A DNA stretch of 64,000 nt from Diplosphaera chodatii (lineage: Eukaryota; Chlorophyta; Trebouxiophyceae; Prasiolales; Stichococcaceae): positions 372,001-436,000 of the forward strand of contig JAALGY010000011.1 in the NCBI GenBank assembly GCA_032358165.1, written 5' to 3'. Positions 21,443 through 55,100 of this stretch are shown one piece after another. Made by a program: the position numbers and the translations under genes. Under the pieces are notes generated by a model. That model did no database searches. It was not told the origin of the DNA and worked only from the letters and a program-made list of their open reading frames with translations. Numbering within the stretch: position 1 is the first letter of the stretch; each line of letters begins with the position of its first letter.

Positions 21443-21451
21443 CACATGGCG
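21443..21451. other. 9-bp target-site duplication, left copy
   Basis: CACATGGCG immediately precedes the left end of the foldback element and is repeated at 27673-27681. Nine-base duplications are typical of Mutator-like (MULE) insertions. Confidence 0.85.
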
Positions 21452-22682
21452 AGCTCAGGCACGCATGTGAGTTACCTGCATTCGGCAACTTTGAGGCAGC
21501 AAAGTTGCTTTATAGCAGTAACTCTGTAAAGGGGCAACACGCTAGGAGCAACTCTGGGTTGCCTTATGCAGTCAACTACCAGTTGCCTCCAACACCACGA
21601 AAGGACTTCGTCAAAAACGGCAAGTGCGGCCAGCACAGACGCCTTCATCATGCGCTGTGGCTTGCAAACTGCTCCTCGACTTGTTGCTGTCCTTCCTGCA
21701 AGCGGCCGCGCCTCTCCAAGCAGCCTGCGCGCAGGCATGTGCCCTGGGCACTCACCTGTGTACGTCATCCCAGCCACGGCTACGGTCGTGCGCACGGGCT
21801 ATGCCCCAACTCACTGAAGGTGCTTCAGATGCAGGTCCTGCCTGTGCCTTCGGTAGGCGGATCGCATGCTCCCTCGTGCTGCATATCAGCGTTGAGCTGT
21901 GAAGGGTCAGCAGGCTTGCAGAAGGAGCAGTTGCCGCATGCAGGCAACTGTCAGTTGCCTTCCGCACTTGACGGGCCCGCAACCTTGCGGCAACCGCAGT
22001 TGCCGTATGCAGGCAACCGTCAGTTGCCTCCGCACTCGGAGCTTCAGCACGCTCGCGGCAACTGCGGTTGCCGCATACAGGCAACTGTCAGTTGCCCTTT
22101 GCACAGGAGGCAAACCTGACGTTGCTCAAAACGCTAAGTGCGGCAGCCACAGACGCCCGCATCATGCGCTGCCACTTGCAGATTGCTCTCTGAGACCTTG
22201 TCGACCTTCCTGCAAGCGGCCGCGCCTCTCCAAGCAGCCTGCGCGCAGGCATGAGCCCTGGGCACTCACCTATATACATCGGCCCAGCCACGGCTACAGC
22301 CGTGCTCACGGGCCATGCCCCAGAGTATCGAAGGTGGTTTGTGTGCATGTCCTGCCTGTGCCTTCATTTGGCGCATCGCATGCCCCGTCGCTCTGCAATC
22401 CCAGGTTTGCTTGTTGGAGCCTGTGCGCATGCATGTCGGTGCACGGCCCCAGAGAAACGGCTGTTGGGGCGCCAGCAGGCTGGGACAAGTCTGCTTGGCA
22501 TGCTGACTGCATAGAGATCGCCGGCGACCGTATGCAGACACCCTGGAGGCCGTGCCAGAGAATGGGGTGCTCGATCCAGACACCATGCAGTGATGCACCC
22601 ACAAGCCGCCAGGCCCAGGGGCCGCAGCGACCGAGCAGCAGTGGCACTAGCCTGAAGATGTAGCATCAGCGGATGCAGCAGG
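21452..22682. repeat. Left inverted arm of the MULE-like element
   Basis: The arm contains several nested small palindromes built on GGCAACTG and CAGTTGCC, between about 21930 and 22100. It also contains two diverged copies of a longer internal unit, marked by GCAAGCGGCCGCGCCTCTCC at about 21700 and 22213. Open frames in this arm reappear reversed in the other arm and are not taken as genes. Confidence 0.85.
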
Positions 22683-25600
22683 CGCAGCTGGGCAGCTCAC
22701 CACGATGCACTTGCTTACGGTGCTGCGTGCACCCAGCAATCTAGCAGGTGCCATTTCGCCCGCTGTATGCGAAGCGTTGTCAGCGCTGAGATCACAAGCA
22801 AGGTCTGTATCGCCCTGAGATCAGCCCTGGAAGACTGGGGAAACGACAATGCAAGCAGGTGACAGGCGCTGTGCACTGACAGCGTATGCTGCAGCCATTG
22901 CAAAACTGGCTTCCTCAGACTCCCACTATCTGTGGCCAGTCAGGCCCCGCAAAGCACTCTAAAGGTGCGTGATCTGCATCGATGTGCAGCTGAAGCTGCC
23001 TGCCATGCTCGCATTTAGCCGTGTTACAATGTTTGTGGCCCGAGCATCTGATGCCAAAGCAGTGTCACTAAGCAGAGGGACATGCCCTTGCAGGCTGCAC
23101 TATAGCCCCGAGTACCTGCCGCATAAGAGCGTTGCCAGCATATGGATGTGCCGCTGCAAGCTGCAGTATAGACGCCTGCAGGAAGCTCCTTTACCAGCAG
23201 CCTGGGCTACAGCATGGAGGCAGGAGCGGCGTGTGTGCACAACGTCGACAATCGTTGCTCCAGTACTGGGATCTATCATAAAGTGCCTCTGCAACAAGGC
23301 TGTCATAAGCAGGGCACTGCCAGACCTTAAAGCAGCTGTGCAGCATGCCCAGAGTCTGGTGCTGATGGCTGGTTGCCTTGTTGCATTGCCTCATGTACAG
23401 TATATTACAGTTGCCATCTGCGCAGCTGCAGTGCTCCTGTGCCCTTAACAAGCGACAGCAACCAACGTGTGCACTAATATAACAGGCTGTCACACATTGT
23501 GCATCATAGTGACACTCAGTCATGCCCAGCATGCAACACAACGCACTCCCGTCTGCACTCGATGCATCATGGTTTCAGGCCATCATATGGCTCCTCATGT
23601 GTTGATCTGCCGCCCCGCACAGCCATGTGCTTGCACAGCCCCACTGCATCGCAGGTGGATCATGAGATGTCAAGCGGGATGAGCTACCAACACCTCCTGC
23701 ACTCAAGCACCGTGAAAGTTGAGCATGCCCTGACAGACGAAACTGTCTGAAGTAGCCACCTGCAGGGCCAGCATCGGTGCATGCTGTGGGTTGACCAGCC
23801 ATGCGGGCCTATCTTCGTAATCTGCAGAGCAACATCAACACTGTTGTCACGCACATAAGCGTGCACAAAGTGAGGAGAGACTATGCGATACGCGTCATTA
23901 GCGCTCACCTCAGCAGAGGGCAATGTCTCACAGACCATTTGCACCCTTATGCAGAGCAAGTGCAATATCACATCCATCAATGGTACGAGTCCCGAGTGTC
24001 TGGATAGCTGTTCAAAAATCACTGCCGACAACGCCTCCTGATATGCATTGGTGGGCGCGTCATCAACCCTGTCAATAGTCAGCAAAGCGTTGATGACCAA
24101 TCATGACCTGTTGCTGAGTTCACGAACAGTCATATGCAGGCCCACGACAGTTGTATGTGGGCTGCCACAAGCTGGAAGAAGGTGCTCACTTCCTGCATCA
24201 CCAGTCACCTCATGGGCGGTGTATGTCTAGGGCAGGTTGCTGAGCACTGCGTCTTGCACTGCAGAAGTGGGAGCTGAAATTCCAGGCTGATACTGTAGGT
24301 GGGCGGGTGGCACTACCTTGACAATGAGCCTGCAGCACACAAGGAGCGCATCAGCTTCACAGTAGCAAGACATCGCCCCATGACTCCATGCTCGACTCGC
24401 TGTGAAGCGCCCGGTGACACAGAGTACACAGCCATACAATGCATGAGAAACATGGTGCCCTACAGTTGCCGGGGCAACTCGTCCATCCACAAGATCTGCA
24501 GAACAATTGGTATAGTGATTCCCGCTGCTGTCAGTGCCATGTGCACCCACCAAGCTTGCATTCTCTGCTGCCACACTAGTGGAGCATTGGTCTGAGGCGA
24601 TGGTCAGTGAGCGGTGTCTCGAAACCTGCACGATCGTGACGGCAGCAAGTTTTGTCCTAGCTTTTGGAGTTCATCTTCCATCCGTGCCTTTCTGCAAACA
24701 GCACAGAGTCCATGGGGGCAATACAAACGTGCTCAAGGTGCGGTGCGTGTGAGTTCAGGCTGTCACACGCTCTCACATGTACATAGGCCGTTACCAGCAG
24801 CAGAGGCCATGTAGGTGGACTGCGTTCAGTGATGCGCTGCGCCCTGACGGCCCACCACCGCTTGCCAGGGATGCCAGGGACAGTTGCCGCATTGCTGCCG
24901 CCATGTGCACTCTCCATGCATCTGCAGCAGAACGAGGTGTCTTCCTGATACAGGTACGTGGGTGTTCAGTGCTCCATCTGCAGTAGCGACCACCTCAGCG
25001 TAAACCAGACAAATATATGCAGACACTGCAAACCCACTGTATGTTCCTATTGACCATGTGCATGCATGTTGCGCACCACATGTCAACCAGCCCTGCTTGG
25101 TGGAAACTGTGCTGGCTCGTCAAGTCGAAGAGAACATCTGGCTCCACTTGTCGGTTGCACCACCCCAAATCTGGATGTGCTGGCAACCAAGCCGCCGAGC
25201 AGGAATGCTGCACTGAGCGGCGGGTGCGTGGACTTCCTGTGCAACATATGAGTCAGTATCACTGCGAGCCCATCTGGAGACCCCATGGCGCTCTATTGAG
25301 ATATCAACGAACGCTGTGCTGCAGTGACATAGCATGCAGCCACACGATATAACAGACAGCGCAGCACGCAACACCACCTAGTGGATGTGATGCACAGCTG
25401 TGCAGCATAGCATCTCCGGGGCGGCACGAAGTCCTCCAGCAATGCCTGTACCATCCTCATGCCTGCCATGTTTGGTGCAGGTGCTGCATGATGAACAGGG
25501 TGACCGATCTACCGATCTACAGCTGTGACTTCACTGGTGGTGAAGCACTTCCAACTGCGCATGATGGGCCCCGGCGGCAGGCTGAGCACCTGCCATCTTT

Positions 25601-26442
25601 GGGTGCTGACAATCTTCAACCATGTTCGTACAAGTCACTTGATGAGCATTGCTGGCTTCCTGTGTCCGGAAGAAGAGAGATGCACGGGAGGCAGTTCGCA
25701 CACGATCACACGCAGGATGCCACATGATATACCCGCAGTAAGAGGGTTTACGAGACACCTGCAAGGCCGCCGAATAAGGCAGACTGTGAACATCATCTCA
25801 GCTTGTGTGGTGGCATTACTGTTCTGCGCAGCTGTAGGGTCAACCATTCACGACGTGCATTGCTGGTCACAATATGTATCCATGCATGCTGTGCTGCAGA
25901 CTGAACGGTCGAACCACGCATGCGACCATGGTGACATAAAGGTATCTTCACAAGTGCCAAAACGTGGCGATGTGGGGTGAGACCTTCACATCCTGACAGT
26001 GTTAAATGCTCACAGCTTCGTATGTGGCTGCAGCATGCACATGTTCTGCCACCTGGTCATCAGCATGGCCTGTTACAAGCTGTTCGCTGGCACCCAGCAG
26101 GCCAGAACTGCAAACCTTGTGCTAGCACTTGAACTGGGCTGGCTGCCCACGGGTGCCAGTGCCATGAAGCAGCCTCTGATCTTCGTTTGAGCAGCCATCC
26201 CAGCAAATTCTGCCGGCCCATGCATGCCGCCGTGGCACACGTTGCTCCCTTCAGCATTCCTTGCGTTTCGTCATGTCTCCTCCAGGTCAGCTGAGCCCTT
26301 CCCTGTAATGGTATAGCAATACGTCGGTAGAGGTCATTGGTTTGACTGCAGGTGCAGCAGCTGTGCATCGCCGGTCATGACACCTGAAAGGCTGTGCAGA
26401 TTGATGCCGCCTCATCTCATCCTGGGTAGCCACTTTGATGCC
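22683..26442. other. Unique loop of the foldback element
   Basis: This 3.8-kb segment lies between the two arms. Open frames reach about 160 codons (for example 22969-23448 plus and 23684-24100 minus). None shows a transposase signature, a zinc finger or codon bias like the host genes. It may be a decayed transposase region or captured host DNA; I cannot decide. Confidence 0.5.
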
Positions 26443-27672
26443 CCTGCTGCATCCGCTGATGCTACATCCTCAGGCTAGTGCCACTGCTGCTCGGTCGCTG
26501 CGGCCCCTGGGCCTGGCGGCTTGTGGGTGCATCACTGCATGGTGTCTGGATCGAGCACCCCATTCTCTGGCACGGCCTCCAGGGTGTCTGCATACGGTCG
26601 CCGGCGATCTCTATGCAGTCAGCATGCCAAGCAGACTTGTCCCAGCCTGCTGGCGCCCCAACAGCCGTTTCTCTGGGGCCGTGCACCGACATGCATGCGC
26701 ACAGGCTCCAACAAGCAAACCTGGGATTGCAGAGCGACGGGGCATGCGATGCGCCAAATGAAGGCACAGGCAGGACATGCACACAAACACCTTCGATACT
26801 CTGGGGCATGGCCCGTGAGCACGGCTGTAGCCGTGGCTGGGCCGATGTACATAGGTGAGTGCCCAGGGCTCATGCCTGCGCGCAGGCTGCTTGGAGAGGC
26901 GCGGCCGCTTGCAGGAAGGTCGACAAGGTCTCAGAGAGCAATCTGCAAGTGGCAGCGCGTGATGCGGGCGTCTGTGGCTGCCGCACTTAGCGTTTTGAGC
27001 AACGTCAGGTTTGCCTCCTGTGCAAAGGGCAACTGACAGTTGCCTGTATGCGGCAACCGCAGTTGCCGCGAGCGTGCTGAAGCTCCGAGTGCGGAGGCAA
27101 CTGACGGTTGCCTGCATACGGCAACTGCGGTTGCCGCAAAGTTGCGGGCCGGTCAAGTGCGGAAGGCAACTGACAGTTGCCTGCATGCGGCAACTGCTCC
27201 TTCTGCAAGCCTGCTGACCCTTCACAGCTCAACGCTGATATGCAGCACGAGGGAGCATGCGATCCGCCTACCGAAGGCACAGGCAGGACCTGCATCTGAA
27301 GCACCTTCAGTGAGTTGGGGCATAGCCCGTGCGCACGACCGTAGCCGTGGCTGGGATGATGTACACAGGTGAGTGCCCAGGGCACATGCCTGCGCGCAGG
27401 CTGCTTGGAGAGGCGCGGCCGCTTGCAGGAAGGACAGCAACAACTCGAGGAGCAGTTTGCAAGCGGCAGCGCATGATGAAGGCGTCTGTGCTGGCCGCAC
27501 TTGCCGTTTTTGACGAAGTCCTTTCGTGGTGTTGGAGGCAACTGGTAGTTGACTGCATAAGGCAACCCAGAGTTGCTCCTAGCGTGTTGCCCCTTTACAG
27601 AGTTACTGCTATAAAGCAACTTTGCTGCCTCAAAGTTGCCGAATGCAGGTAACTCACATGCGTGCCTGAGCT
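26443..27672. repeat. Right inverted arm of the MULE-like element
   Basis: This is the reverse complement of the left arm with few differences, for example AACTTTGCGG against AACCTTGCGG. It ends in GCGTGCCTGAGCT and is followed at once by the second CACATGGCG. Confidence 0.85.
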
Positions 27673-27681
27673 CACATGGCG
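27673..27681. other. 9-bp target-site duplication, right copy
   Basis: CACATGGCG directly follows the right end of the foldback element and is identical to 21443-21451. Confidence 0.85.
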
Positions 27682-43868: not shown

Positions 43869-45013
43869 TCAGTCGTCCTCAAACTCATCGCCCGGCGGCC
43901 GGCGCAGGTGCCAGTGCACGCGCGGCACTGCGCGCTGCACCTCCATCAGGTCGTCCGTCACTTGGTGAGGTAGGCACTTGCGGGGCCGGCACCACAGATG
44001 CCGCAGGCTGATGCAGCTCCGCAAGGCTCCAATCAGCTCGTTGGGCACTACCATTGTTCTGCACAAGCAAAACCCGGCACATCTGGTGGCGTGCCAGCTC
44101 ATAACAGTGCAAACGTCATCAAGTTGACAGGGCGCTGAACACACACAATCAGTCTGCAACAGGCTACCCCAGACCAATGGCGCTCAGGTCAAGAGTGACG
44201 AGCTGCGGCATGGCCTCCGCCACAAATGTAAGGATGGACATGCCAACCCCCTCCCATTGCAAACGCAGCTCTGTCAGTCGTCGCAAAGCCCTGCATGCCA
44301 ACCACTGTTCCACGCCGCAGCCGCTCAACCGTGAAAACCGCAACTGCTGCAATGCCGTACATCCGTCCAGACCTGCGCAACAACAGCAAGGTGCACAGCG
44401 AGCTTACGACATGCATGCTTGCACATCCGCAAGACGCCTGTATGTTTGTTGCTGGAAAAGCTTTGCGGATCCAGCACAAACCTTTAAGAACCTCGCCATG
44501 CTGAAAGTCATCATCCACATCGCATAAGCGCAGTCTACACCAGGAGTTTGATATGCAAACTTGCATATTAGGTATGTTCATAGGACTGACTAGTGCCGTG
44601 TTGTAAAAGAGTGACAAGCTGTGTCCAGAGCAAAGGATTGACGATCGCAAACAGCATGTGGGCATGCACCTGCTTAGGTGGGGCATACCACTCAACTTCG
44701 CCATATCTGACAGCGTGATGTCCATTTCTCGCAGCGTCAGATCGTGTAGGCCTACACACAACAATTCGCATATGCGACTCCAGCCATGTGCAAGCAGCAC
44801 CTATCATGCCTCACCTAGCTCACGTGTCAACAGACTGAATTCAAATGCCTCTTCAAAGTTCTTCTCGGTTATTGCACACCTGTCAGCGCCGCCAGAGTAG
44901 ACGGCACACGGCCATCAATGTCCAATTGCTTCAGCTTGGTCAGCGCAGCTGCAGCGGCTGGTAGCAACGTGGCCCTACGGTGATCACTGTACAGACCGAT
45001 GGAGGTCAAGCTT
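43869..45013 (-). pseudogene. F-box/LRR unit U9, 3' half-gene left of the inversion
   Basis: Only the 3' half of exon 6 (from SLTSIGLYSDHRR to LAALTG, about 45013-44880) and exons 7-10 are present on this strand. Exon 7 reads DLTLREMDITLSDMAKLSGM, exon 8 DVDDDFQHGEVLKG, exon 9 LDGCTALQQLRFSRLSGCGV, and exon 10 VVPNELIGALRSCISLRHLW ending GDEFEDD. Splice sites are good, including the phase-2 donor of exon 9 (GG/GTAGCC). The half-gene stops exactly at AAGCTT at 45008-45013. Its missing 5' half fits U11 on the plus strand, in frame at the same codons. I therefore read U9 plus U11 as one gene split by inversion. Confidence 0.8.
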
Positions 45014-45029
45014 GACCTCCATCGGTCTG
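44992..45029. repeat. 38-bp perfect palindrome at the head-to-head junction
   Basis: The half CAGACCGATGGAGGTCAAG is followed directly by its reverse complement; the centre is AAGCTT at 45008-45013. Each arm is the start of an exon 6 3' half (LTSIGL codons), one on each strand. Confidence 0.95.
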
Positions 45030-45964
45030 AAGGGCGGCTGCTCGTACCCTCAGATCGGCATTTCCTCGCCGCTGCCTGCCGCTGCAGCTGGGTTAACTGG
45101 GTTGAAGGAACTGGACGTCGATGGGTGTCGCGTGCCGCCTGCTTTGGAGGCGCTCACAGGTGTGCTTCGGATAAGCAAAGTCACAAGGGGCAACTTGCAG
45201 TGATTGTGTTGATTTACTAGCCCGGCGAGGCTTGGGCGGCGTTGCTTTGCACATGGTCAGCGTGGCAACACGCAACGGTGTTTTGTGCAGGCCTACACAC
45301 ATTGACTCTGCGAGAGGTGGAATTCATGCCGGCGGATGTGGCAAAGTTCAGTGCCATGCGCCACCTGACCAGGTGCATGCCCACATGCTGGTCGCATTTG
45401 TTGGTACATCTTGTCTGGGCACATCTGCCACACTTTTGTAAGTGGTGCTGATAGGTCCTCTGCATATGGCCAGTGTGCAAGCATGCTTCCTGAAACTGCT
45501 GGTGCAGGCTGTGCTTGTACGAAGTCAGAGGGAGCTTTCAGCAACGGGACGAAGAGTTCCTTCACATTTCCATCCCTGCGGTCGTGGCCGACACCATGCC
45601 ACAGCTTGTCGACCTCGACATCAGCGACAACAACTGGAGGTGGGCCACTGCAGTGTACTTGTCGCAGAATCAGCAACGGCCAGTAGCCTTTCTGGTGTTG
45701 CTGTGACAATCGGCCGCGCTGTCTTTCGGCCAGCACGCCTCCATCTCAAACGTGCAGCGGTTTGCACTGTGCAGGTCGACCGTCCCGGCCAGCGAAGTGA
45801 TTGAAATACTGCGGCGCTTCGTCAGCCTGCGGCACATGTGGTGCACCAGAATGATTTTTCAGGAGGCGGACGGCCTGATGGAGGTGCAGCGCGCCGTGCC
45901 ACACGTGCGGTGGTGCGGAGGCAGCTTGCCGGGCGTCGACTTCGACCAAGGAGACCGAGGATAG
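45008..45964 (+). pseudogene. F-box/LRR unit U10, 3' half-gene right of the first junction
   Basis: Read on the plus strand: exon 6 3' half (45008-45159, SLTSIGLKGGCSYPQ to LEALTG), exon 7 (45291-45372, TLTLREVEFMPADVAKFSAM), a fused exon 8/9 (45508-45639) and exon 10 (45775-45964, VPASEVIEILRRFVSLRHMW ending DFDQGDRG). Exon 8 (EVRGSFQQ) runs straight, in frame, into the last third of exon 9 (ISIPAVVADTMPQLVDLDIS). Intron 8 and the LDGCTALRQL part of exon 9 are therefore deleted. Its 5' half matches U12 on the minus strand. Confidence 0.78.
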
Positions 45965-47243
45965 AGGTCGTACTTGCAAATGACCGTGGCCAGGCTGCTG
46001 TGCGGGATCCGCTTGCAGCCGCTCCTTCCCAGTGCGTGGCTGCTCTAGATGGATAGTTTGCCGAGTCAGCTAGCTGCATGAACGAATCAGCTGTCCTCTT
46101 CAGCCTGCCAGCTACTCTGAGTTGATGCGGCTGTAGACGATTTATATGGGTGGCACCTTGATCGGTCGACCGCATGTAGCTGGCGTGCATGCACGACAAT
46201 GGTAGTTGTGTTCGTACTTGATCACACTGACGAGATCGCGTCCGCTCCCTTGGTCAAATGGGCACCACTGCTGTGCGGACTTGCTTTCCAGCCCATGAAG
46301 ACACACGCTCGACTGGCGTGGCACCTCACACGCAGGCCATGCGCTATGATGCACTGCAAAAAAAAGTGTGTATTTCTAGGGGTAGTCAAAGCACCAGTTA
46401 GTTAAAGAAGAGCTGTTTAATCACCCCTAGTATATGCATAACCGCTTGGCTCCCAATAGCTTGGCGCCTACCGTACACTGTGCTGTGGCACAGTGTCCTG
46501 CGCCACGCCCTGCAAATTTGGATTGCACAACCATGCGCATGCTGTCAAGCATGCTTTCGCTCTGGTGATTGCTCACTCGTTGCCTGGAAATGCCACTGTG
46601 CACGTCCGTGGACATGGTGAATTGCAGCCAAGCTGTTGCCCACCGCACCCCACACGTTAATGCCGCTACACCATGCGGCCATGCTTAGAATGTCTGCAAG
46701 CAGCAGGACGTGCAACTCGGCCCCCTGCTCTCCTGTCTTGAAAGCCTGGAAGCCCACGGCACGACCTTGATCTACCGTGTAACGTTGGCAGAGGTCAGGA
46801 TTGTGACCTGCTGATGGTCGTGGCCACTCGGCATGGCCTGCGGCGTGGTGCATCACCCGCGAGTGCTGCTCAAGCGCGCGGTTGCTGCACGCGGCACAAC
46901 AGTATGCTGCGTTGCCTGGTGGATTGCGCGCAGGTTGGAGAATGGAGATAGCTCACAGCTGATCATGCGATTGTGCAAATTCGATGCACGTGCCGCATGT
47001 GCATTGAGCATTGCAGCACGAGGTGTGGCGAGTGAAGCATTGATGCCTTGCCTTCAATGCACAAACGCATATGTGTGATATAGCTTATGATGTATGAAGT
47101 GTGGCGTTGAACGTCCATGCAAGGCGGGGCGGCTAGCTGTCAGTGTGCAGGAACACATGATCTGTGGCACCACAGCGGGCGTGTAGGATAACAGCTCCCC
47201 CGTCAACTGGAGCTTTGGACCCGGTGTGGTGCACAGCTTTGCA
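45965..47243. other. Spacer inside the inverted segment
   Basis: No coding exon was seen. It lies between the 3' end of U10 and the ATG of U11. After un-flipping the segment it would sit between the stop of one array gene and the start of the next, like other array spacers. A weak inverted pair (CTAGGGGT near 46375, ACCCCTAG near 46425) is present. Confidence 0.4.
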
Positions 47244-48009
47244 ATGGTGCGATCCAAGCGAGCAAAGCCAGCAATTGTGGCAGAACCGAGCTCGGCGCAA
47301 CAGTCCGCAGGCATCCAGCAGCTGAGCGATGACCTGCTGGGCCGCGTGCTGCTGCTCATCCCGCAAGGACAACGGTGAACGTCTTCGACCATCACCTCTG
47401 GCTATGCCGGTGACCACTGCACTCCATCGATCAACTTCCAGCCTGATGCGCTCCCATTCAGTTTTCAAGTCCTGCGGTGTTTGCAACAGGCTCAGGTCTG
47501 CGGAGGTGTGCAAGGCATGGAACAGGCTGCTGTGGCGCGCCGACATGTGGGCGGTCATGGAGTGCCCGTTCAAGCAGCTGGCAAGCCGCGTGAGCTCACC
47601 GCATGGCAGCAGCGTCGGCGTGGATGCCCTGCACTGGATCACAACTCGCTGCCGCGCCACGAAAGTGCTGCGGATTGAGGTTGGGCCGACGCACAGCTAT
47701 CAAACCTGTACGCTGCTGCAGATGTGCACAGGGTTACATGCGTGTCCAGATACTCAGCCGTCTGGGGTTCTCAGGGTTCTCATGGTTGCAGGGGACGGGT
47801 CTGCAGCACACCGATTCGATTGATGGCGAGCTCCAGAAGCTGCTCTTGGCTTTTGCAGCGGCGCCTGCGCTGGCTGAGCTGTCGGTGGCGTTCCCTGACC
47901 ATGCAACCATGTCCTGCGAAAGCCTGGTGGGCGCAGATGTTGTCTACTCTGTCTTCATGTTCTCACCAGTGCCGGCGCTCTAAAGCGCTTGCATGAGGCC
48001 ATGCAAGTT

Positions 48010-48012
48010 GTA
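48010..48012. other. 3-bp target-site duplication GTA, left copy
   Basis: GTA directly precedes the CACTA terminus and recurs at 49288-49290 after the right terminus. Three-base duplications are the rule for CACTA elements. Confidence 0.75.
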
Positions 48013-49287
48013 CACTACTGGATTTGACCCCCTCGTCCGTGCACGGAATCACCGCGGAACACCCCCATTTTGACTGCGTTCCGTGCCGCCAGGCTGCCAT
48101 GCACGATGATGGTTCCTCGGACGTTCCGTGCTGCGCCCCCACTGGAGTTGCTACGTTCAGCGGCCGTTCAGTGGGGTTCCGCGTCGTTCCGCACTGACGT
48201 TTCCGTTCCCCCGGAACGCAACAGTCTTGCAAGCGTTCCGCTTCACACGGAACTGCGGGCGGAACGGCAGCGCTGCCACGAGGAACGTTGGCAAGGAACG
48301 CACGGTGCATGTGCATACTACGGTGCATACTACGGTGCATGTGCAGCCCGTCACGCGGCCCATTTTGCGGCGCTTTGCCGGTGGTCCATGCACATGATCG
48401 TTGGTGGACAATGCCAGTCGTTGAGAGCCAAGGAAGCCATGTGCAGGACTTTGAATCTGGCTGTTACGGTTGCATTGTCACGCTGCATGGGTGCAGTGCC
48501 GCGCACGGCCCGTTGCGGCGCCCAAGCACTTCACAATGCACAGACATAGCACAGGCTAGAGTGTGCAGCAGGCCGATGCAGCCCTGCCAAATCTGGGGGC
48601 AGAGTATGCGCAATGTTGTCAGCTGCAACCGCCAACCGTTAACGGTATGTCCGGGTCAAACAGACATAGCCGCAGGCAGCGCTGCTTGCATCAGCCTACC
48701 GCTTAGGCAACACAAAGATGTAAGCCGATGCAAGCAGCGTTGCCTGCGGCTATGTCTGTTTGGCCGGGGCAGTTGGGCGACCTGTGACAACGCGGCGCCC
48801 TACGCACGCACATGGTGCTCGCCTACACCGAGAGCGCTTGCATTACAGTTCGAGAAGGTCGCTGCCGGTGACTGACTAGCCTTGCTCGCGCTGCAACGCG
48901 CTCTGTGTTCAGCAGATCAGCACGCGATGTGCTGAGCTTCAAATCGCTAAGTGCTCAACAGGCAGGTTTGTAAGTGATAGGCAATAGCTGCAGTGGCAGA
49001 GCCTTTCAATGCGTGGCAAAGGCACGCGGAACGCTCCTGCACAGGACCGTTCCGCGTGCGAGGACTGCAAGGAACGCTCCTGCGTAGGAGTGTTCCGTGT
49101 TTCCCACCAGCGTTCCGCGACAGTTCCGTATGCATGACCAGTTCCGCACGGAACTCACCACTTCAACACGGAATGACCACGGAAGGCTCGTTCCGCATGC
49201 TTGCGTTCCGCCCATGCGGAATGCAGTGCGGAACGCTAACTGACTGCCACGGAACGACCGCGGACGAGGGGGTCAAATCCAGTAGTG
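48013..49287. mobile_element. Non-autonomous CACTA (EnSpm-type) element, 1.28 kb
   Basis: The ends are perfect 27-bp inverted repeats beginning CACTACTGGATTTGACCCCC. The first five bases, CACTA, are the hallmark of the superfamily, and a 3-bp GTA duplication flanks the element. Subterminal regions (about 48035-48300 and 49020-49260) are packed with GTTCCG/CGGAAC motifs in both orientations, as expected for transposase-binding subterminal repeats. No transposase frame is present. It lies in intron 3 of U11, within the inverted segment. Confidence 0.88.
48657..48762. repeat. Long hairpin inside the CACTA element
   Basis: 36-bp arms starting CAAACAGACATAGCCGCAGG at 48657-48692 and reversed at 48727-48762 differ at one position. 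The 34-bp loop extends the pairing imperfectly. Confidence 0.85.
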
Positions 49288-49290
49288 GTA
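49288..49290. other. 3-bp target-site duplication GTA, right copy
   Basis: This follows the terminus CCAGTAGTG and matches 48010-48012. Confidence 0.75.
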
Positions 49291-49930
49291 TCGTGACAGG
49301 GAGTGGATGTAATCGGCATCCTCTGATGCAGTACCACGTTAAGCTGCTGGGTGGCCTCACGAAGCTGGAGATACAGGGAATTAGGAGCCTGCCAGTAACC
49401 AATGCCCGGAATGGCATGTTCTCAGCGCTGCCACGGTTACAGGTGCAGCAGGCTTGCCTTGAGAGTCTTGGGACGACTTGAGGCCGAAAACTTCCTGTTT
49501 CAAAGTCCCAATTGCGGCTCTGTTGGTGCTCACGTGCCAAATGTCGGTCACCACCGCCTGTTTTGCTGTCTTCGATGCCAGGCATGCAAGCTGGACATAA
49601 GTGCTAACTCGGAGGGACCCAAACAAGTTGGCGTACCAACAGCGCTGTATGGCTGCTCACAGCTGACGAGTCTTGTGATTTACGATCGAGATGGCAGCCA
49701 TTGCATGGACTGGGGTGAGTCATCCTCCATCCTCTCGGACATGCAGAAGAGTCTGCTGAAGTGTCTACAGATGACAGGCAGGTCTCGGCCATGATGGCAT
49801 TACTCAGAGAGGCATGCAACTTGCATGCAGGTGGGCTGTCGCAAGGCATCACAGCATTGCAGAGACTGGCACACCTGCGCCTGCAGAATGTTCTGTCAGA
49901 ACCGCTGACGTGCGCAGCCTCAACACTTTC

Positions 49931-51420
49931 AAGCTTGTCAGTGCTGACACAAAGCACGTCAGCGGCTGAGACAAAACATTCTGCAAGCGCAGCTGCTTCA
50001 GTCGCTGCAATGCTGTGATGCCCTCTGACATCCCACCTGCATCACAGGGGCGTGACATTCTGATGAGCTGTGTCATGGCCAACACCTGCCTCTCTTGTGT
50101 AGATGTAGGCTCCGTGTGGCGCAGCAATTGCAAAATTCGTTTGCATATCCGACACACTGGAGGAACACTCACCCCATTTCATAACATGATTGCCGTGATG
50201 GTCGTATATTACCAGGCTCGTCAGCTGTGTGCAGCTGTACAGCGCTGTTGGCATGTCAGCACCTCGTATATGCCCATGATACTCCATGTCTGAGTTCATG
50301 TCCAGCCGGCAGGCCTGGCAACAGAGACAGTATAAGCGGTGGCAACACGCGGCAGTGAACATGAAGTGTGCTCCATGTAACATCTGAAGCATGGAGCCTT
50401 TAGGCCCCAATGCGTCCAGGGTTGTCACAGCAACCGTGCTGTACCTGCAGCCTTGGCAGCGCTGAGAATATGCCATTGTAGACGTTGCTTGTGTTCGGCG
50501 GGCTGATGCCCGTTAGATCCAGTTTCGTGAGGCCACTCAGCAGCTTGACATGATACTGCACGATAGAATGTCAATGTGCATTTACTTTGACGGATATATC
50601 ATGAATCTACTACGGCCTCATGCAAGCACTTTGTAGGATCGGCAAGAGAGCAGGCAGCAGCCGCACCCACCAGGCTATCGCAGGACATGTTTGCGTCGTC
50701 GGGTAGCCATATCGACAGTTCCGCAAGCGCAGGCGCCGCTGCAAAGACCACGAGCAGCTTCTGGAGCGCGCCATTGTACGTGTCGTGCTGCAGCGAGGGC
50801 GCCTGCAGCATAGAACCTTGTGAACCCTGTCCGAGCCGGCCACACACGCATCCTGTGCAGGTCTGCAGCAGGGCACAACCTTGACAATCCGTGCGTTTGC
50901 CCAACCTCAATCCGCAGCACTTTTGTGGCGCGGCAGCGAGGCACGAGCCACTGTATGGCACCCACGCCAACGCTGTTGCCATGCTCTGAGCGGTCCGCCA
51001 CGTCCGTGAGTGGGCAGTCAATGACCTCCCACATGTCGGGGCGCCGCAGCAGCCGATCCCATGCCTTGCACACCTCCGCACACCTGAGCCTGTGGCAACC
51101 ATCGCACTGCTGCCGACGTGGGTGGACCATGCGGGTGGACCACCAGGGTGCAGGGATTTCAAGGTGCGGTGCTCATTGTGGCTGGGAGTGGTAAAAGCAC
51201 GTGGCTATCAGCAAGGCGCCGCAGCAGAGTGCGCGACCATGCAACAACACCTTTCGCCTTGCGGGATCAGCAGCAGCAGAAGGCGCAGCAGGTCGCTGCT
51301 CAGATCCTGAATGCTGGCAGACATTTGCGCTGGGCTCGGTCCTGCTCGAGCTGCTGTCTTTGCATGCTTGGAGCGCCCCGCTTCAGGTTTGTCTTTCAGG
51401 GCTTGAGCATCGGACGCCAT
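49931..51420 (-). pseudogene. F-box/LRR unit U12, 5' half-gene right of the second junction
   Basis: The minus-strand start at 51420 gives MASDAQALKDKPEAGRSKHA and the F-box core IQDLSSDLLRLLLLLIPQGE (51420-51251). Exon 2 is 51089-50906 (RLRCAEVCKAWDRLLRRPDM). Exon 3 reads LQKLLVVFAAAPALAELSIW, exon 4 HVKLLSGLTKLDLTGI, exon 5 MPTALYSCTQLTSLVIYDHH, and the 5' half of exon 6 GMSEGITALQRLKQLRLQNV ending at SALTSL. The frame is open to AAGCTT at 49931-49936. The matching 3' half is U10. The leader and F-box are the most diverged of the array, and with U11 they form a subgroup (shared LPRLQ, KVLRIE, CDSL/CESL). Confidence 0.8.
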
Positions 51421-52150: not shown

Positions 52151-55100
52151 ATGCCATCAAAGGCAGCAGTCAGTCGCTACGTCTGTCGGACATGCAGTCT
52201 GAAGCGGCGGCGCGTGGCGCAGGACAGCCTGCTGCCGCGCAGTGATGGCGCCAAGCGGTAAGAAAGCTGCAAAGTGAGAAGCCGTTGAAAGCAGAAACTA
52301 GTGTGGTGTGGTGGTGATCAGCAACTATGGCAGCTGTGCACTGTCACGACTTGATGCAATTGGATGAGCATAAAAGTATAGTCGTTGCTGTTGTCACTGA
52401 CAAAGTTTGAGGTTGCTCTGTCGCCTGCAGGGCGCTGTACCACTGCAACTACTGCCAGCGGGACATCAGCGCGGGCGTGCGCATCAAGTGCGCCGTGTGC
52501 CGCGACTTCGACCTGTGCCTCGGCTGCTTCGCCGCAGGTGTGCCACCATGCCCCGCGGCTTCACAGCAGGGTGGAGACCCTTGCAGCACAACACACTTGC
52601 CAGCTTGAGGCCACACCGCAGCATGCTGCAGCAGTCTGCAGCACTCCAGGGATTCTGACTTTCATTTAGCAACACTTTGCCCGGCGAGTGCAGGGGCGGA
52701 GGTGACGCCGCACAAGGCGCACCATGCCTACCGGGTGGTCGAGGAGATGTCCTTCCCGCTCAACCACCCCGACTGGGGGGTGAGTCCTTATCTCACGCCA
52801 AACCATCCTCCTTGCAACATCCACTGTGAAGGACACGCTTCTGCATATGCTGCTGTACACTCGACCGAGCCAGCCAGAAGCAGGCGAGAGTACACACATA
52901 CGCGCATGCAGGCAGCGAGCACGCCTGCTGTGCAGCGCCAGCCAGCCGGCCACCCTTGCCTCTCAACGCAGGCCGACGAGGAGCTGCTGCTGCTGGAGGC
53001 GCTGGACATGTACGGCCTGGGCAACTGGGGCGCGGTGGGGGAGCACGTGAACCGGGGGGCCGCGGAGTGCGCGGCGCACTACGAGCGCATCTACCTGCAG
53101 TCGCCGGTCTTCCCGGAGCCCACGCCGGCGCCCGAAATGGCCGGGGTGAGCGCCATCTGCCCGAAAATACTGCTCACACACAGCATTCAGCCTCCAAACG
53201 CTCAGATGTCTAGTGCAGCTCACCCTGATCCGGCTCAGCATGCAGGGCTTTTTTTCCTGGTGATGTATGACACTCCTGCTGCAGATTGACCCGGCAGCCT
53301 GGATCCGGGAGAGGCAGCGCGTGCGGCAGGAACCTGACCAGCAGCAGCCAGCAGCTGCCACACACCCGAAAGCAGACACAGGCGCAGCTAATACCGACGG
53401 CACAGCTGTTCAGGCCGGGGCTGCGGCAATGCCGCAGCAGAGCTCAGCCGTCGCAGTGCAGGACGGCGATGCTGGGCCAGCAGCAGGCAGTTCACCATCA
53501 CAGGGTGGGGCAAACGGCGTCAGTGCTGTCAAGGTGGAGCCGCCTGCACAGCCAAAGGCGGAGCCAGATGCACCCACGAACACAGCAGACGCGGCCATGG
53601 CAGCTGCTGAAGTCGTCTCAGCTCCCAGCAGGCCTGGTGGGAGTGGGAGTGGCCTGGTTGTGGCAGCAGGCGGGGATGCAGGCGCCACCCAGCAGGAGGC
53701 AGTGAAGCAGGAGGACGACAGCAGACAGCGGGTGCGTGCAACGATAGAATTCACGACTGCGATGATGCAACCAAGTTGCTGCAAATCACAATCTGTGCCC
53801 AGCAACATGACATGAGCACATGCAGCGGCACTGTGTTGCCGCCGTCATCGGCCAAACTTCCGCCTTTGCACTGAGTATGACACCACCTGGTGTCTGAATT
53901 TGCAGCCTGGCAGCTCAAAGGACACCCGCGCTCCCGCGGACACAGCGCCGCACGGTGCCAACACGCCGGCGCAGGCGGCGGCGGTGCTCGCAAAGCTGGA
54001 GGGCGGCGGGGCGCCTGCAGGTGAGATATTCCCTTGCGTGCCACTACATCGAATCCAGTGTCATGGACCAAGCATGGGTAGGTCGTTCACTGTGGCTGTG
54101 CAGCCCACAAGCTGCGAGCACAGGTCTTCTGATGCTCCAGATGTTCCAGATCAAGTGCTCTCATATCTGGGTAGCAAGCAGCACAGGCCAGCAGGGCAGC
54201 CTGATGGCAGCAGCACCAGGCACATGTCATGTATACACTTGAAACTTCCAACAAAGTCTGCGCATCGCATCGTCCAGTCGACTGGCCTGCCCATGCGACA
54301 GAGGCTCCAGGGGGTACGGAACCTGACAGCGGGACCGCCGCACCTGCAAACGCAATGGCACAGCCAGATCCTGCTGCAGCAGCGGCAACGGCGGCGACAG
54401 GGGCGGCAGCACCAGATCAGAATGGAGCGCAGGCAGCAGCGCCGTGTAACACAGGGGCTCGCACAACCCCAGGTGATTCCTGAGACTGTTGTGCCGTCTG
54501 CCAAAACAAGATATCATGCCTTCACATGCACATGCACGTCAGTTGCTGGGCGTCTCAAATGTGACATGACCTTGCCACAGCAACATGCAGAAGGCAACAT
54601 TCCCTTGGGAGAACTGGATTCATCTGGCGCTGCAGTGACACCAGACGCCCGCGCATCCAAGCGCCGCCGTGTGGAAGCAGTGGAAGGTCCCGACGCCGCA
54701 GCCACGGACGCTCCTGGCGGCGCTTCTCCTCCCCGCACGCCCATCCCAGGTGCATAAGTGACCTCGTGTCATATCCTGACACCATCATCTACATGGCAGA
54801 AGTGCTGAAGACCCGGACCAGCCACCAGAAGTGGAGTTAATGGCATGCCGAGCGATCGCCTGGAGTCTGGGCTGCAGCTGCAATTGTACTGGGGCAGAGT
54901 CCCTCTTAGGACTCTGTGCAAACCTTGTTCCTTCGTCGTTGGCCTTGCATCACGCCGTTTCCCCTGCTGCAGGCGCCAAAACAGCAGGCTCGGCGGGCGC
55001 CAAAGCCAAGGCGAAGGAGGATGCAGGAGGCGTCGGCAGGAAGCAGGAAGGCGGGCGAAGGCCGGAAGGAGCGGCGGCGGGGGGTGCCAGCCCTAAGCCT

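Follow-up and report, generated by a model that had tools for sequence, protein, structure and literature searches.

An apparent 4.9-kb inversion between in-register palindromes splits two tandem F-box/LRR genes of Diplosphaera chodatii

Introduction

How do two neighbouring genes of a tandem array come to be broken inside the same exon, at the same codons, with the DNA between the breaks facing the other way? This question is raised by an array of F-box/leucine-rich-repeat (LRR) genes in the green alga Diplosphaera chodatii (GenBank assembly GCA_032358165.1; 85.6 Mb in 55 contigs). The window, the whole stretch of DNA analysed, is 64,000 nt long and corresponds to positions 372001-436000 of contig JAALGY010000011.1, called C9 here; coordinates without a contig name are those of the window. 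An earlier note on this DNA had proposed that a 4.9-kb inversion between two AAGCTT sites splits two genes of the array. The sequence comparisons presented here lead us to favour, with moderate confidence, a recent inversion of 4.9 kb in the sequenced strain, without gain or loss of bases, whose ends lie in self-complementary palindromes of two directly repeated paralogs.

Results

The ten-exon F-box/LRR model was taken from an intact paralog on the minus strand (30649-28066), and its exons were placed on the window by tblastn. The array, between 12 and 51 kb, is made of minus-strand genes, and the exons between 45.0 and 49.9 kb were found on the plus strand. This exon map showed a reversal of exons within a gene at two places only. 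At 45008-45013 the exon-6 3' halves of two partial genes (U9 and U10) start back to back and diverge; at 49931-49936 the exon-6 5' halves of two others (U11 and U12) converge. Both switches fall in exon 6, at the same codons. A site scan of the window found AAGCTT at these two positions and no copy between them; judged by its sequence, 45008-49936 is a whole HindIII fragment. The window has 12 AAGCTT sites in all, a number in line with the 13.47 expected. The parts of the locus are as follows, the half genes being placed with the exon model and assigned to genes A and B by the pairing preferred below.

45008-49936, no strand: inverted segment of 4,929 bases, both AAGCTT sites counted, delimited by exon orientation and by exon-6 continuity before and after reversal
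45007-45014, no strand: left junction CAAGCTTG, the centre of a 38-bp perfect palindrome (44992-45029)
49930-49937, no strand: right junction CAAGCTTG, an 8-bp perfect palindrome
43869-45013, minus strand: U9, 3' half of gene B, from the end of exon 6 to exon 10 and the stop
45008-45964, plus strand: U10, 3' half of gene A, from the end of exon 6 to exon 10 and the stop
45965-47243, no strand: intergenic spacer carried in the inverted segment, between the U10 stop and the U11 ATG
47244-49936, plus strand: U11, 5' half of gene B, with F-box-like sequence in exons 1-2 and an end inside exon 6
49931-51324, minus strand: U12, 5' half of gene A, from the ATG to the first part of exon 6

The palindrome common to both junctions is the 8-bp CAAGCTTG, with AAGCTT as its core, which provides a short self-complementary match at either end of the segment. 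The palindrome at the left junction reaches 38 bp because both genes have 23 identical bases onward from there.

Reversing 45008-49936 in a script turned the four half-exons into two full ones. Exon-6 scores as assembled were 43.9 (U9), 53.9 (U10), 47.4 (U11) and 51.2 bits (U12), and rose to 96.7 bits for U12+U10 and 82.8 bits for U11+U9 after reversal, both restored exons covering residues 1-85 of the model. No base was gained or lost. The restored exons were compared with 13 others in a 15-row DNA alignment of exon 6, compiled without gene b4, the partial gene at 42753-41347 and more distant subfamilies; the junction was gap-free against 11 of these 13 rows, and the two exceptions, w16 and a1, carry private insertions at this position. 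The reversed spacer separates a stop from an ATG, as had been anticipated for a spacer at about 45.97-47.24 kb. The site scan, exon map and script reversal upheld the earlier note on how the inverted segment lies, on its junctions exactly at AAGCTT, on the lack of internal AAGCTT and on the restoration of two genes.

The same note had stressed that exon 6 reads in frame once U11 is joined to U9 and U12 to U10. This is true, but it is not specific to these pairs. Both junctions lie at the same codon, so that any pairing of the halves, including U12+U9 and U11+U10, is in frame, and the frame argument cannot separate a simple inversion from an inverted insertion. The assignment of U12+U10 to gene A and of U11+U9 to gene B is preferred on parsimony, because a simple inversion needs only two breaks and no donor. 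A duplicate or donor copy was not found in the assembly: a 221-base U11 probe matched itself at 100% and otherwise only U12, at 81%, and a protein search with exon 6 of a paralog (60 matches) returned no further close copy.

The domain scan covered two proteins, that of joined gene B and that of the intact paralog 30649-28066. The gene B protein scored 38.5 bits for LRR_R13L1-DRL21 (cut-off 27) and 18.0 bits for the F-box PF00646, below the cut-off of 20.5; the paralog passed for both types of domain (PF00646, 23.1 bits against 20.5; LRR_4, 34.1 bits against 27). With joined gene B as query, a protein database gave nothing at E <= 0.001 among the best 7,994 candidates scored, and residues 1-150 of the intact paralog gave nothing at E <= 0.01 among 1,569 candidates. 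In U10, intron 8 and the beginning of exon 9 are missing and the reading frame is preserved; the missing piece may be older than the split or a first sign of decay.

Among the 15 aligned exon-6 sequences, only genes A and B have AAGCTT at the junction codons. One MAFFT alignment of the two genes contained, in register, 12 six-base palindromes with nine distinct sequences, four 8-bp palindromes and one of 10 bp. AAGCTT alone of the nine sequences is absent from the inside of the segment, where 30 of the 64 six-base palindromes are missing. Inverted matches between A and B at any position amounted to 198 8-mer, 17 10-mer and 2 12-mer position pairs. Since inverted matches are this numerous, match length does not explain the choice of site; register together with self-complementary ends, or HindIII, does.

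Divergence was estimated separately for the two halves of the genes, with exon 8 omitted from both the 3' tree and the substitution counts; exon 6 of gene A was cut three codons before the junction, so that three U12 codons are counted with the 3' half in the trees and in dN/dS (non-synonymous over synonymous substitutions). Between A and B, the synonymous divergence dS was 0.47 and dN/dS 0.48 for the 5' halves (230 codons), and 0.58 and 0.51 for the 3' halves (139 codons). Nine other paralog pairs, four of which include A or B, gave dN/dS values of 0.26-0.56. The compared exons of A and B contain no stop. This constraint and the stop-free exons indicate that both genes were probably whole until lately. 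The genes would probably have been constrained for most of their separate history, the split being young or an artefact. That the half-gene pairs stand for two genuine genes, as had been proposed, agrees with their restoration and their stop-free compared exons; between a real split and an artefact, the assembly lets us do no more than lean towards a real one.

Trees of 16 genes placed the 5' halves U11 and U12 as sisters (100/100) and left the 3' halves U9 and U10 ungrouped, in a part of the tree without resolution. The sister pairs w29-b3, w32-b2 and w36-b1 agreed in both halves. Genes A and B were probably mosaic before the flip, judging from these trees, and such a pattern would be expected after an unequal exchange close to exon 6 at an earlier time; it neither proves nor excludes an inverted insertion. 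The half-gene trees do not tell which 5' half belongs with which 3' half, because the 3' halves lack resolution.

Mapping was extended to 196 kb around the arrays. Its first 136 kb contain seven orientation changes, namely the two junctions and five between genes, and the other 60 kb contain none. With these five other changes in 196 kb, orientation switching is a habit of this superfamily on C9, a point in favour of an inversion. The minus-strand genes w36, w32 and w29 of the window have their sisters, in this order, as the first three genes of a plus-strand array (C9:580516-596369). In its paralog b2, exons 6-10 are nearly contiguous (C9:585193-585960), with introns 6-9 apparently lost and retained in the sister w32, which suggests cDNA-mediated loss of 3' introns.

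Intron 3 of U11 contains an element that is in contact with neither junction.

48013-49287, no strand: CACTA-like non-autonomous element with 27-bp perfect terminal inverted repeats starting CACTA

A 3-bp target duplication, GTA, was read by eye, and we take the element to belong to the CACTA superfamily. Its first 318 bases occur at six places in the genome, itself included, at 96-100% identity; two matches elsewhere, at C15:2630689 and C9:33870, are 100% identical, and by this measure the element looks young.

Other features were observed in and around the array. A 5' partial copy of the family on the minus strand runs from 42753 to about 41347 and ends in exon 6, with no 3' half directly after it; neither an AAGCTT end nor a reversed partner was seen for it. 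Two paralogs have insertions at the exon-6 codons equivalent to the junctions. One (16166-15905, minus strand) has a 10-base frameshifting insertion there and a stop in exon 7. The other carries an insertion (C9:322331-322425) that resembles an intron, with possible GC-AG ends and 82% A+T in the 95 bases taken; no second copy of it was present in the 196 kb checked. Between two array genes lies an element of about 6.2 kb (21451-27673) with 1.24-kb inverted ends that are 99.1% alike. Similar inverted pairs are present at C9:95632-102058 and at C19:313030-319253, and other contigs gave half-length matches (88-90%); two open reading frames in its ends had no Pfam match. Just outside the array, a plus-strand reading frame (52609-53286) encodes a Myb-like DNA-binding domain (28.0 bits, cut-off 24.4) and has a weak ADA2 ZZ match below the cut-off.

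Discussion

A recent inversion would account for the locus as follows. In exon 6 of both tandem paralogs, A and B, the corresponding codons contained the 8-bp palindrome CAAGCTTG. This word is its own reverse complement and would serve both as a direct repeat and as an inverted one, so that ends broken or paired at either site could be joined to those of the other. Similarity may have held the paralogs together, staggered breaks or strand exchange would have taken place inside the palindrome, and end joining would have closed both sides. Both F-box/LRR proteins would be lost or truncated as a consequence: U11 and U12 would retain the start and the F-box exons and then enter antisense sequence, and U9 and U10 would be deprived of a start and F-box exons of their own.

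Several points weigh against this reading. The word at the junctions is the one cut by HindIII, and that enzyme would release the segment in one piece. It is unusual for microhomology end joining to leave every base in place. The 8-bp match is not the best available, as longer inverted matches and an unused in-register palindrome of 10 bp exist. The gap in U10 could be early decay of an older split. Finally, the evidence comes from one assembly of a single strain and a single haplotype.

A broader idea, to which we give little weight, is that in-register palindromes in direct tandem paralogs are natural inversion sites, at which staggered, self-complementary 4-base ends are rejoined crosswise while the paralogs are paired. 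Through conserved LRR codons, tandem F-box arrays would then undergo flips in addition to expansion, and both orientations might coexist in the culture. Candidate cutters would be, for example, topoisomerase II or an endonuclease cutting AGCT or AAGCTT in vivo. Topoisomerase II could make a staggered cut with a palindromic 4-base end.

The strongest competitor of the recent inversion is an artefact, in which a HindIII fragment was excised and re-ligated backwards in a clone or a ligation library, or was turned round at the assembly stage, and the genome has two intact genes. We consider this clearly less probable than a real inversion, while giving it serious attention; both weightings are judgements. 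An artefact would account for AAGCTT at both ends with none inside, for AAGCTT being the sole in-register palindrome sequence absent from the segment, for the stop-free compared exons and for the zero-base scar, as a palindromic 4-base overhang re-ligates perfectly either way.

Other observations argue against an artefact. The 196 kb mapped around the arrays, a small sample of the assembly, contain 27 + 9 = 36 HindIII sites. Twelve of them could be judged, being flanked by exon hits within 1.5 kb of each other; orientation was unchanged across ten, and the other two are the junctions. The junction sites lie in register in paralogous exons, which would be a coincidence if HindIII fragments flipped at random and is expected if the event was guided by paralogy. 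This check of register covered exons: among the other ten AAGCTT sites of the window, one (20583, in exon 3) is well inside an exon hit. The 20 contigs sampled measure 36 kb to 3.56 Mb; two start with telomere repeats (AAACCCT), and the start of one is all N, possibly through masking or a gap. Two of them have lengths of exactly 1,790,000 (C9) and 2,727,500 bases, a hint of later scaffold editing. The multi-megabase contigs, the telomere starts and the complete lack of N in 196 kb suggest uncloned long reads. A filled-in junction from chromosome conformation capture (Hi-C) would read AAGCTAGCTT and not AAGCTT, which also counts against an artefact. AAGCTAGCTT is absent from the window; genome-wide it occurs at 41 places, against 14 for a reversed control pattern, and we draw no inference from these numbers. 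Of the 41, 13 are in C55, the presumed plastid contig. C55 contains a reading frame of 475 amino acids for the RuBisCO large subunit.

An inverted insertion or reinsertion appears improbable. A gene made of U12 and U9 would have been interrupted at AAGCTT by a reversed U10-spacer-U11 unit from another pair of the array, for example one released as a circle when direct repeats recombined. The same-codon junctions put U12+U9 and U11+U10 equally in frame, and the grouping of the 5' halves but not of the 3' halves means that exchange at or near exon 6 may have occurred in the lineage. Against it, an insertion takes three breaks where an inversion takes two, and its donor was seen neither with the U11 probe nor in the exon-6 protein search. 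That U9-U12 are old independent partial copies, the case named earlier as one that would overturn the inversion, or an old fold-back inverted duplication is least probable of all: partial copies do occur in the array (42753-41347), and fold-back inverted duplication is reported from the human genome (PMC3907307), but free-standing halves at a dS of about 0.5 should have stops and frameshifts, whereas the compared exons are stop-free and, at each end of the segment, the halves join in register without a base out of place.

If real, the inversion would be a clean, young case of a tandem array losing two genes in one conservative event, in which a palindrome lets direct repeats behave as inverted ones, and would be one more of the orientation switches that this superfamily shows repeatedly along one chromosome. 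If it is an artefact, two genes have been wrongly recorded as four fragments, and the signature of in-register AAGCTT, a full HindIII fragment and zero lost bases would be a simple check for other assemblies.

Our literature search found no paper on palindrome inversions in paralogs or on HindIII assembly errors, and wider searches gave general papers on mechanism. The locus is best compared with four better-known systems. The tandem F-box clusters of plants likewise consist of tandem F-box genes with a C-terminal repeat domain, and passages of PMC3719486 on other F-box subfamilies of land plants state that F-box genes of the unstable kind tend to lie in clusters and to change rapidly; unlike them, the genes described here are of the LRR type, and neither protein-database query returned a homolog. 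A HindIII fragment flipped in cloning or ligation would be expected to give an identical sequence, but this assembly looks uncloned, and the junctions apart, the 12 judged HindIII sites show no change of orientation.

Non-allelic homologous recombination (NAHR) also uses paralogous sequence at the same position. According to passages of PMC2583991, direct repeats lead to deletion or duplication and inversion requires inverted repeats. The restored paralogs are direct repeats, without long inverted repeats at the segment ends in the original order, and the palindrome alone is inverted; by that rule, ordinary NAHR between A and B is insufficient. Small inversions made by microhomology or non-homologous joining, or by fork stalling and template switching/microhomology-mediated break-induced replication (FoSTeS/MMBIR), resemble this one in having a short self-complementary match at the junctions and an original order without large inverted repeats. 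The same passages quote two to five nucleotides of microhomology for FoSTeS; the D. chodatii segment differs in that both its ends lie in register in paralogs, share an 8-bp palindrome and have lost no base.

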